Of a stretch of 23,010 nucleotides of DNA, positions 16,863-22,610 are shown one piece after another; the first letter of the stretch is position 1; every line of letters begins with the position of its first letter. Both the position numbers and the translations under genes were made by a program. Under the pieces are notes generated by a model. It did no database searches. It was given only the letters and a program-made list of their open reading frames with translations, and had not been told where the DNA came from. Source of the stretch: a virus. The stretch covers positions 1 through 23,010 of the IMG/VR virus record IMGVR_UViG_3300001533_001634. The stretch is one strand, 5' to 3'.

Positions 16863-16932
16863 AGTGTGTCTCCTTTGTGGTTGCTGACTATCTCTTACTC
16901 AGTCGTAGAACAATAATCAACACCTTAAAAAA

Positions 16933-16966
16933 GGGAGTGAGAGTATTTCATCTCACTCCCAAGAAA
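16933..16966 (-). terminator. Intrinsic terminator after the major capsid gene
   Basis: On the minus strand GGGAGTGAGA and TCTCACTCCC pair over 10 bp around an 8-nt loop, and six T follow at 16932..16927. It lies 36 nt beyond the capsid stop. This has the complete form of a Rho-independent terminator. Partial read-through would supply the downstream genes with less mRNA than the capsid gene. Confidence 0.85.
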
Positions 16967-16995
16967 GAATGAGACCCCTTAAAGGGGGAATTATT

Positions 16996-17853
16996 TTAAG
17001 TTTCTACTCCTTCCTCGGCTGACATAACAACAACTTCATCAGGGTAAAGTACTGTTGCACCAAAGACATAGAGACCTCTTACAAGTTCGCCGAAGTCGGT
17101 TGGATTCATTAATGACTCAACCTTCTGAACCGTTGCTGCAAAAGGAATTGCTCTCTGTGAGAAAGCAAGGATTTGATATTCATCATCACCGGTTCCAGCT
17201 GCTACAACTTCGGTTGATTCAACAATGTTTAGTCCAGCATACTTGAAGACAGTTCCAAACTCAAAGACCTGCATATTGTCTTGTAATCTCTGACCGGCTG
17301 CTTCAGCAATCTTCTGCATATACCAAGGCGGTACAACCATCCACGCTTGATCTCTTTGTACGTGTTGCTCTCTCAACTTCCTTGCAGCTGTTGATGTGTA
17401 TCTTAGAACATTAACTTCAAGAATTTCTTCTGAGGAACCAATTGATCCAATCTTATTTTCTGCTGGTATGTCAGCATTTCCATAAACGTCCGAGCCCAAG
17501 AAGTAAGCATCGGCAGTACGACCAAGTGCTCGACCTGACTTAACAATGGCTGGAGGAACATAGTCCGGAGCTGATTGCATTTTCTCAACTTCATTAACTC
17601 TGAATGAGAACTCATTCATTTGATCTAAGTTTAGATCGGTTTCATTGTCGGTTAGGTCTTCATAGGTCAGTGTTCCACCAGGTGTGTAGGGAGCAATCGT
17701 TGGAGTTGAAACTCCAATAATCTTAACTGTCTTAGCACCTGCTGACTCGACCTGATATTCCATATTTGCAACTGTAGCAATGATTGAATTCTCTTGTGCT
17801 TCAACCTTTACTCTTGCAGCATATTTAACGGTTTCGCTATAACTGATTGCCAT
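16996..17853 (-). CDS. Major capsid protein (HK97 fold)
   Basis: This 285-residue coat protein directly follows the scaffold gene (11-nt gap, AAGGAG site). Features of the HK97-fold coat family include an N-terminal helix, an early loop with TIAPYTPGGTLTYEDLTDNETDL (about 52-74), a spine-helix region ending VPPAIVKSGRALGRTADAYFLG, the WMVVPPWYMQKIAEAAGQR stretch at about 171-189, and the beta-rich C-terminus QRAIPFAATVQKVESLMNP. It reads closest to P22-like or related coat proteins. Scaffold upstream and terminator downstream fit the most abundant virion protein. There is no N-terminal protease or delta domain. Confidence 0.9.
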   Translation of the reverse strand: MAISYSETVKYAARVKVEAQENSIIATVANMEYQVESAGAKTVKIIGVSTPTIAPYTPGGTLTYEDLTDNETDLNLDQMNEFSFRVNEVEKMQSAPDYVPPAIVKSGRALGRTADAYFLGSDVYGNADIPAENKIGSIGSSEEILEVNVLRYTSTAARKLREQHVQRDQAWMVVPPWYMQKIAEAAGQRLQDNMQVFEFGTVFKYAGLNIVESTEVVAAGTGDDEYQILAFSQRAIPFAATVQKVESLMNPTDFGELVRGLYVFGATVLYPDEVVVMSAEEGVET

Positions 17854-17864
17854 AGGTAATCTCC

Positions 17865-18455
17865 TTATCTATTTTTTTTGTAGTATGCTTCCCATTCCGC
17901 CTGAGATGCATCTTTGCCTGGCACACTGCCAGACGATTGACTTGAAGTCCCTTCCGCCGGAACCTCAACATTGTTTCCTTTCAATATCTGTTGCTTCAAC
18001 TTTTGAGTGTAATTCTCAATTGATGATGCAAACTTATCTAAATTAGCTTGAGTTTTTTCCTTTTCATCCGAGATTAAATAATCAACCAAATCGGTTGGAA
18101 GTTTCCTCTCACTTAGAGTTTGAACAGCAAATGCTTTATTTTCAGCCCTTAATTCTGCTCTCTCTTTTTCAAGAAGTTTTTCATTCAACCCATTGGTCTT
18201 TCTTTCCATCTCTTCAAGTTTAATCTGCCAAGGTTCTTTGTGTTCTCTGGCTTTCATTCTATTATCAACCTCTTCATCCAGAATTGAAGGTAATTTCTCC
18301 TTCTTAAACTTATTGACTGCTTCACCCTGTTTTGCATTCAATAAATCAATAAAATCCTTGGATTGTAAGAATTCGTTGATAACCTCTTCCTTGTTGATTG
18401 ATGCATCAGCTGATGCATCAATCTGATCTGCATTGCTTTCGTTAAATTGACCCAT
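17865..18455 (-). CDS. Capsid scaffolding protein (DUF4355/gp20-like)
   Basis: This is a 196-residue, highly charged, coiled-coil protein (KLEEMERKTNGLNEKLLEKERAELRAENKAF region, about 82-110) with an acidic, low-complexity N-terminus (about 4-21, including DASADAS) and a Ser/Gly-rich tail before a C-terminal AEWEAYYKKNR. This is the typical layout of siphophage scaffolds encoded just before the coat gene, which guide procapsid assembly and are then lost. GGAGG precedes the ATG. The leader carries three small hairpins, and a 28-bp perfect palindrome covers codons about 11-20. Translation may therefore be restrained or tuned by RNA structure. Confidence 0.88.
   Translation of the reverse strand: MGQFNESNADQIDASADASINKEEVINEFLQSKDFIDLLNAKQGEAVNKFKKEKLPSILDEEVDNRMKAREHKEPWQIKLEEMERKTNGLNEKLLEKERAELRAENKAFAVQTLSERKLPTDLVDYLISDEKEKTQANLDKFASSIENYTQKLKQQILKGNNVEVPAEGTSSQSSGSVPGKDASQAEWEAYYKKNR
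18396..18423 (-). repeat. 28-bp perfect palindrome inside the 5' end of the scaffold gene
   Basis: The half GATTGATGCATCAG is followed by its exact reverse complement CTGATGCATCAATC. The same bases contain two direct copies of TGATGCATCA, which encode the repeated DASADAS. In mRNA it can fold as a 12-bp stem with an AGCU loop, starting 32 nt after the A of the ATG. Confidence 0.85.
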
Positions 18456-18472
18456 AGTAACCTCCAGTAGTC

Positions 18473-18486
18473 ATCCTCGTAAGGAT
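18473..18486 (-). other. UACG-loop hairpin 1 in the scaffold leader
   Basis: Minus-strand RNA AUCCU-UACG-AGGAU forms a 5-bp perfect stem with a UACG loop. It lies 18 nt upstream of the scaffold ATG, just before the GGAGG ribosome site. It shares the 8-nt apex CUUACGAG with two further hairpins upstream. Confidence 0.65.
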
Positions 18487-18510
18487 TGTCACTTTTGTTT
18501 TTATTTTTTC

Positions 18511-18526
18511 TTGACTCGTAAGTCAA
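18511..18526 (-). other. UACG-loop hairpin 2 in the scaffold leader
   Basis: Minus-strand RNA UUGACU-UACG-AGUCAA forms a 6-bp perfect stem with a UACG loop. An A-rich 24-nt spacer without obvious pairing separates it from hairpin 1. No U-run follows it, so it is not a terminator. Confidence 0.65.
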
Positions 18527-18527
18527 T

Positions 18528-18543
18528 GGATCTCGTAAGACCC
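18528..18543 (-). other. UACG-loop hairpin 3 in the scaffold leader
   Basis: Minus-strand RNA GGGUCU-UACG-AGAUCC forms a 6-bp stem including one G-U pair, with a UACG loop. The wobble pair works only in minus-strand RNA, not in DNA or the other strand, pointing to an RNA element. It is one base from hairpin 2. Confidence 0.65.
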
Positions 18544-18571: not shown

Positions 18572-18865
18572 CTAATAATTACACAGTTCTTCTTCAGTGT
18601 AAAACTGTCTTAATATATCTAAATCATATGATGTGTATGTATTGATTTCAATTTTATCGACACTCATCTTAAAATCAATGCTTGTTTTTTCACCTCTGTT
18701 TTTATACACAAGTCCTTCAATCATATGACTCTCTCTATTGTAATATAAGTCAAATGTAAGTAGTGGTTCCTTTTCTAATTTTCTAAAAAGTCCCGTATTG
18801 TTTCTTGTATTCAACCAAGTTGCAATCTTTAATTCTTTAATCTCTGATTTTAGCTTTCCAAACAT
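18572..18865 (-). CDS. Small unknown protein between minor head and scaffold genes
   Basis: This is a 97-residue soluble protein with a basic, helical start (MFGKLKSEIKELKIATWL) followed by beta strands (LLTFDLYYNRESHMIEGLVY) and an acidic end (YTEEELCNY). It has an excellent ribosome site, AAAAGGAG, which lies inside the final codons of the minor head gene, with one base between stop and ATG. The gene is real by coupling and spacing, but I recognise no family. Location suggests a virion or assembly role. Confidence 0.65.
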   Translation of the reverse strand: MFGKLKSEIKELKIATWLNTRNNTGLFRKLEKEPLLTFDLYYNRESHMIEGLVYKNRGEKTSIDFKMSVDKIEINTYTSYDLDILRQFYTEEELCNY

Positions 18866-22278: not shown

Positions 22279-22610
22279 TTGCCCTCATCATCTTCTACAT
22301 CATCGGTGAAGTTTATTTCAGCAGGTTGATTGATTTGAATATCCTGCTCCACAACTTGCTTAGGTCTACCATATCCGTGATCAATCAAAAGTTTAAGTGC
22401 TGAAGTATCACCATTCATTGAGAGGTCAAACAACTTCTTGAACAGTGCTTCCTTACGAGTAATGAATTCACCCTCTTTACCCTTAACTGGATAGTCCTTA
22501 ACAGAAAGCATCTTCTCAATTATTTCGCTGGCTGATGTCTTAGCTTTGGGACGCCCTCCTCTATTAATACGTGGATCACCCTTCTTAAATGACCCTCCTG
22601 ATGCTGCCAT
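22275..22610 (-). CDS. Small terminase subunit
   Basis: The protein has 111 residues. Its N-terminus, FKKGDPRINRGGRPKAKTS, matches the F-x-K-G-x-x-x-N-x-x-G-R-P-K pattern of phage DUF5681-type DNA-binding or small terminase proteins. A helical core (EALFKKLFDLSMNGDTSALKLLIDHGYGRP) and a very acidic tail (DDVEDDEG) follow. It directly precedes and overlaps the large terminase gene, which supports a role in recognising viral DNA for packaging. A strong AAGGAGG site lies 5 nt before ATG. It is the first recognised gene of the transcription unit. Confidence 0.85.
   Translation of the reverse strand: MAASGGSFKKGDPRINRGGRPKAKTSASEIIEKMLSVKDYPVKGKEGEFITRKEALFKKLFDLSMNGDTSALKLLIDHGYGRPKQVVEQDIQINQPAEINFTDDVEDDEGK

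Follow-up and report, generated by a model that had tools for sequence, protein, structure and literature searches.

In phage Mu, translation of mom is activated when Com binds to a hairpin beside an inhibitory structure. Its natural target, GAAUGCCUGCGAGCAUCCC, folds as AUGC-CUGCGA-GCAU, with the hexaloop CUGCGA on a short stem, and its SELEX motif is CC(N)2-3GAG in a loop closed by a C-G pair (PMC6483171). The NusG paralogue LoaP depends on a UNCG hairpin located in terminator-containing leaders (PMC12691694), and ANTAR proteins (EutV and others) bind dual hexaloops in which A1 and G4 are required and the second hairpin overlaps a terminator (PMC8934654). In cyanobacteria, the psaA RNA motif comprises three 5' UTR hairpins, often with UNCG tetraloops (PMC2864571). 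We found no description of UACG hairpin arrays in phage leaders in the open-access literature. Here, we analyze such an array in the leader of a phage scaffold gene.

The window, as we call the whole 23,010-nucleotide stretch of viral DNA that was analyzed, carries the array immediately ahead of its scaffold and major coat protein genes (Table 1). In minus-strand RNA the three hairpins have a common UACG apex and differing lower stems, as the sequence-only reading had described, and the single G-U pair of hairpin 1 does favor that strand. The A-rich spacer between hairpins was likewise found at the length originally given. In all three, the loop is closed by a U-A pair, and written out to the next, closing C-G pair each hairpin reads C-UUACGA-G. 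The window contains four copies of CTTACGAG against 0.21 expected; three of them are the hairpin apices, and the fourth lies on the opposite strand at 22452, within the gene preceding TerL. Of 20,000 dinucleotide-shuffled versions of the 116-nt gap that holds the array, none had three hairpins with the same loop and six had two, and no second 120-nt segment elsewhere in the window has three same-loop hairpins. The hairpin region folds with z = -2.1, and Rfam 15 covariance models gave no match at the gathering threshold over the whole window. We conclude that the UACG array in the scaffold leader is a real RNA element absent from Rfam, and, given the arrays ahead of genes in unrelated phages described below, that it is very probably a control element rather than a chance pattern.

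Table 1. Features of the array and its surroundings in the window, and zinc-ribbon ORFs in related phage loci.
Feature	Position	Strand	Sequence or description	Evidence
Hairpin 1	18528..18543	-	GGGUCU-UACG-AGAUCC, 6 bp, one G-U pair	sequence; model R1 match 20.7 bits
Hairpin 2	18511..18526	-	UUGACU-UACG-AGUCAA, 6 bp	sequence; model R1 match 19.2 bits
Hairpin 3	18473..18486	-	AUCCU-UACG-AGGAU, 5 bp	sequence; model R1 match 18.9 bits
Spacer	18487..18510	-	GAAAAAATAAAAACAAAAGTGACA, A-rich, unpaired, 24 nt	sequence
Shine-Dalgarno-like site	18461..18465	-	GGAGG, 7 nt past hairpin 3	sequence
Scaffold gene	17865..18455	-	first gene behind array	phrog_172 2e-13; PF14265 2e-11
Major coat protein gene	16996..17853	-	second gene behind array	phrog_267 4e-42
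Intrinsic terminator	16933..16960	-	3' of coat gene	terminator scan: 10 pairs then TTTTTT
Zinc-ribbon ORF, L425	1866-2090
Zinc-ribbon ORF, L426	771-1010
Zinc-ribbon ORF, L427	370-609
Zinc-ribbon ORF, L428	315-509
Zinc-ribbon ORF, L431	2136-2318
Zinc-ribbon ORF, L433	2107-2301
Zinc-ribbon ORF, L434	2050-2253
Zinc-ribbon ORF, L440	1934-2122
Zinc-ribbon ORF, L007	757-993
Zinc-ribbon ORF, L416	9141-9368
Zinc-ribbon ORF, L400	6892-7083

Relative to the scaffold start codon, hairpin 3 occupies positions -18 to -31. On its far side from the scaffold gene, the hairpin gap is bounded by a 97-aa ORF (18572-18865), which we considered as a regulator and set aside after family searches gave no match. The gap had been taken for the only long one in the head operon, which proved wrong, as the 133-nt gap that follows the coat gene (16863-16995) is longer. 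That second gap, which leads up to the next structural gene, contains a small palindrome, CCCCTTTAAGGGG, and a strong terminator, GGGAGTGAGATGAAATACTCTCACTCCC followed by TTTTTT. The terminator 3' of the coat gene possibly marks the end of the scaffold-coat unit. A terminator scan identified none within the window's own leader; the strong one after the coat gene lies 1.5 kb downstream of it. The 5' arm of hairpin 2 can form a 9-bp pairing that would occlude the start codon, but 16% of shuffled start regions match it; because this is no better than chance, we make no claim of start-codon occlusion in the window.

Searches with the coat and scaffold proteins returned no close relatives of the window phage. 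Relatives identified through TerL, which are 39-48% identical over the aligned parts, have no such array in the loci examined, and no UACG array precedes the scaffold gene in about 80 IMG/VR loci with distant coat-protein relatives or in five annotated phages. Because these distant relatives have no array, the element is sporadic, coming and going among phages. Aeribacillus phage AP45 and deep-sea phage D6E have, in their scaffold leaders (L299:1588-1748, L300:1622-1782), a hairpin-like stretch with a common RCGUUAAA (GGCGUUAAAG, GACGUUAAAC), perhaps another scaffold-leader RNA.

Scanning IMG/VR for three closely spaced copies of CTTACGAG gave 26 stretches, most of which were coding or tandem repeats. 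Hairpins with unrelated stems were present in the contigs L017 and L025 and in a group of five contigs (L007, L009, L022, L028, L029). The search for CTTACGAG hairpin arrays that the sequence-only reading had recommended led to unrelated jumbo phages and to phages with arrays in portal-gene leaders. In bacterial genomes, we inspected 80 of at least 118 stretches with triple CTTACGAG matches and rejected them, the stem-bearing ones resembling tandem repeats. Another contig has at least five tandem 22-nt repeats of GTTAGACTTACGAGTTTGGTAA (L010:9519-9630), each one a CTTACGAG hairpin, an arrangement that resembles iterons.

Erwinia phage pEa_SNUABM_48 and Salmonella phage SA002, to which L017 and L025 are related, are jumbo phages in which two to four UACG hairpins precede one gene of about 330 aa whose function is unknown. 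The stems around UACG are GACU/AGUC, GCGGA/UCCGC and GCUCU/AGAGC in pEa_SNUABM_48 and GUCU/AGAC, GCGGA/UCCGC and GCCCU/AGGGC in SA002, and five Agricanviruses have two hairpins in the same place, GGCU/AGCC and GGUGU/ACACC. We compared the leaders of the Erwinia phages pEa_SNUABM_48 and 37, Salmonella SA002 and the two IMG/VR contigs. In a four-sequence alignment, both sides had changed at 5 pairs, 97% of cells pair and UACG is constant, and slid controls of the same alignment gave no double change. With a single-hairpin covariance model, the best matches in the jumbo genomes fell at one gene, and elsewhere there were only scattered singles. No terminator accompanies the jumbo-phage hairpins. 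The gene behind the array (L229:6498-7487, pEaSNUABM48_00218, and its homologues) has a conserved N-terminal domain of 80 aa. Caulobacter phage CcrBL10, in a protein of 99 aa, and Proteus phage 10 also have this domain (L270:1201-1500; L269:1198-1917), but neither has the UACG hairpins.

In the five-contig group and in a further locus, L416, UACG hairpins lie upstream of the portal gene (phrog_2662) of HK97-type phages, and their leaders fold with z of about -6 (L007 and L416). Additional portal leaders were picked by homology of the portal protein, not by the motif. Clean UACG hairpins were present in those of L425, L428/L429 and L433, weaker ones with two G-U pairs in L426 and L427, and CACG in L440, while GBK2 and Silence, named relatives by portal, have no leader gap. 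Under a strict test, three of the eight homology-found leaders carry 8 UACG hairpins, whereas random segments of these loci would be expected to give 0.18 leaders. At hairpin 1 of the portal leaders, both sides had changed at 8 of 9 pairs and 98% of cells are paired; L428 and L433, which are clear homologues, differ by several double changes with no break. Our covariation evidence consists of these alignments of homologous jumbo and portal leaders only, as pair counts over a wider set of 15 hairpins are circular, those hairpins having been chosen for pairing. Selection on RNA pairing in the homologous jumbo and portal leaders is well supported, and the earlier suggestion of a selected RNA element is supported by the combination of covarying stems and a fixed UACG. 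On the companion proposal, to compare the hairpin gap among relatives, covariation appeared in other phages; in the window's own lineage the searches gave distant coat relatives only, and these have no hairpins.

The last UACG hairpin of the portal leaders has one arm in common with the intrinsic terminator that follows. In L425, for example, GUCU can pair in GUCU(UACG)AGAC or in AUGCUUAGUCU...AGACUAAGCAU-UUUUU. On sequence grounds, this sharing of an arm points to a terminator/antiterminator switch in the portal leaders. Taken together, at least two UACG hairpins with unrelated stems in a phage gene leader are found in the window and in the jumbo and portal phages, so that such arrays occur in at least three unrelated phage lineages, every time in coding orientation. 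This recurrence points to a shared function or a shared reader, rather than to common descent of the neighboring genes.

The portal-gene arrays also suggested a candidate reader, as a zinc-ribbon ORF usually precedes them and is absent from relatives whose leaders have no hairpins. Directly upstream of the portal gene, or of its leader terminator, a group of low-GC phages has an ORF for a small zinc-ribbon protein (Table 1), a fast-evolving family with the consensus YIWHCP..C..G.ILFKTE.PFL..GKIKCP.CGKLY. Its matches to Com families are weak (phrog_6417, 1e-4; phrog_13819, 0.008) and below the PF10122 cut-off, and in the PDB only generic zinc fingers match it by sequence. Strict hairpins were present in 5 of 10 leaders with the zinc ribbon and 0 of 10 without it (p = 0.03), and TTACG in 9 of 10 and 0 of 10, respectively, although both comparisons are confounded by relatedness. 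Because of this, we treat the co-occurrence of zinc ribbon and hairpins as a lead suggested by gene order and sequence. A clean UACG hairpin is missing from three of the ten leaders with a zinc ribbon (L431, L434, L440). We found neither a zinc ribbon of this family nor a Com-type one (PF10122) in the window, which is a 23-kb fragment, and none in the jumbo genomes beyond one weak sub-threshold match. In L430, a DUF559-like endonuclease gene (120-552) apparently replaces the zinc-ribbon gene of the sister locus L431, with the portal leader unchanged.

Our main reading, to which we give a probability of about 0.5, is that scaffold and coat expression in the window is controlled by a cis-acting array of RNA hairpins to which a protein binds. 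A putative RNA-binding protein would read the UACG apex (CUUACGAG) and require a stem below it, the sequence of which would be free, and once bound to the leader it would act on the mRNA downstream. Translation initiation is the step likely to be affected in the window, given that hairpin 3 lies so close to the start codon; its end is 7 nt away from GGAGG, so that an initiating ribosome would run into a protein bound there. Alternatively, the protein might help transcription to pass the post-coat terminator. The likeliest class of reader would be a small phage zinc-ribbon protein resembling Mu Com, because a zinc-ribbon gene just precedes the portal-gene arrays. From these arrangements we infer that a protein binds, what protein it is, and in which direction and at which step it acts in the window. 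Among the ideas offered by the sequence-only reading, a protein-binding array or translational operator is the best supported.

The same reading had also suggested that the hairpins stabilize the mRNA. They would then keep nucleases away from the 5' part of the scaffold-coat mRNA and increase yield with no dedicated reader. Much scaffold and coat protein is required, a run of three leader hairpins would suit this role, and the stems are free to vary in homologous leaders. Stability, however, requires no single loop, and UACG closed by U-A recurs, in 13 of 15 hairpins (hairpins chosen for pairing), although it is predicted to gain nothing in stability over other loops and to fall 3.8 kcal/mol short of the C-G-closed form. 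Additionally, the portal-leader hairpins overlap terminators. We favor a reader over stability because the U-A closure forfeits the stability bonus predicted for UACG, the loop recurs in unrelated phages and each jumbo genome has a single gene with an array; a pure stabilizer is less likely. We hold a similarly low opinion of antitermination, in which the array would recruit a factor to RNA polymerase, as with the LoaP UNCG hairpin or lambda N/boxB, allowing it to pass the post-coat terminator and others further downstream. Such a role fits the LoaP requirement for a UNCG hairpin in terminator-bearing leaders (PMC12691694), the joining of UACG hairpins with terminators in the portal leaders and the strong terminator downstream in the window. 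Against it, there is no terminator in the window leader and none beside the jumbo-phage hairpins, and a NusG paralogue (PF02357) is absent from 12 phage records including the window, in a search that covered phage genes.

Two further explanations would dispense with an RNA function, and we regard both as very improbable. Every unit is also an inverted repeat in DNA and could serve a dimeric DNA-binding protein or act as a replication or recombination site, but the arms vary around a constant TACG spacer, the orientation is always coding, and some of the covarying pairs are G-U, which can pair in the mRNA strand alone. The array might otherwise be due to chance or be a functionless by-product of local duplication, an idea helped by having no conservation from close relatives in the window's own lineage. 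The shuffles and the covarying recurrence in unrelated phages argue against chance, and simple duplication fails to explain hairpins whose lower stems have no common sequence.

A broader view is conceivable, which we advance more tentatively than the reading of the window itself. The UACG arrays may form an undescribed class of phage riboregulator that arose in, or moved between, unrelated phages, mainly at virion genes (scaffold, portal), and that is read by Com-like zinc ribbons or by a shared host factor; it would work as a terminator/antiterminator switch at portal genes and as a translation switch at scaffold genes. Apart from a few models, little is known of the RNA-level control by which phages adjust the relative amounts and the timing of scaffold, coat and portal. 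The fixed-loop hairpin, recurring as it does, provides a search signature for such control, as well as a candidate partner in the zinc-ribbon ORF before portal genes. Should the zinc ribbon be the reader, control of the Com type would no longer be confined to a single gene of Mu but would reach head assembly in many phages.

We compared the array with the four systems outlined above. The psaA motif likewise has three hairpins, often with UNCG-class loops, in a 5' UTR, but it belongs to cyanobacterial photosystem genes, and the window gave no Rfam match at the gathering score. ANTAR attenuators also consist of tandem hairpins in which certain loop positions are constant and the stems may vary, and their terminator overlap recurs in the portal leaders and not in the window, the leader of which has no terminator; unlike the A1 and G4 of their hexaloops, the window loop UUACGA has U1 and C4. 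The LoaP dfn/mln leaders combine a UNCG-type tetraloop and an intrinsic terminator, as the portal leaders do, and UACG in all three window hairpins is a loop of this type, whereas LoaP itself is a NusG paralogue that uses a single hairpin in host biosynthetic operons. The Com motif CC(N)2-3GAG is not matched in the hairpin loops, CUUACGAG differing from it at the second C and the jumbo hairpin GGAUACGUCC having no GAG. The arrays further depart from Mu in having several hairpins rather than one, with UACG as the constant part, and in the genes controlled, which are scaffold, portal and one with no known function, the portal leaders also having a terminator. In other respects the arrays resemble the Com and mom system: a short RNA hairpin lies upstream of the controlled gene, the Mu loop CUGCGA resembles UUACGA (pattern YURCGA), a C-G pair closes the loop in Com SELEX and in 12 of 15 UACG hairpins (hairpins chosen for pairing), and a small zinc-ribbon gene precedes the portal-phage arrays, just as com precedes mom. 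We conclude that the window element works like the hairpins of these systems but did not fully match any of them, its general kind, protein-binding leader hairpins, being already known.
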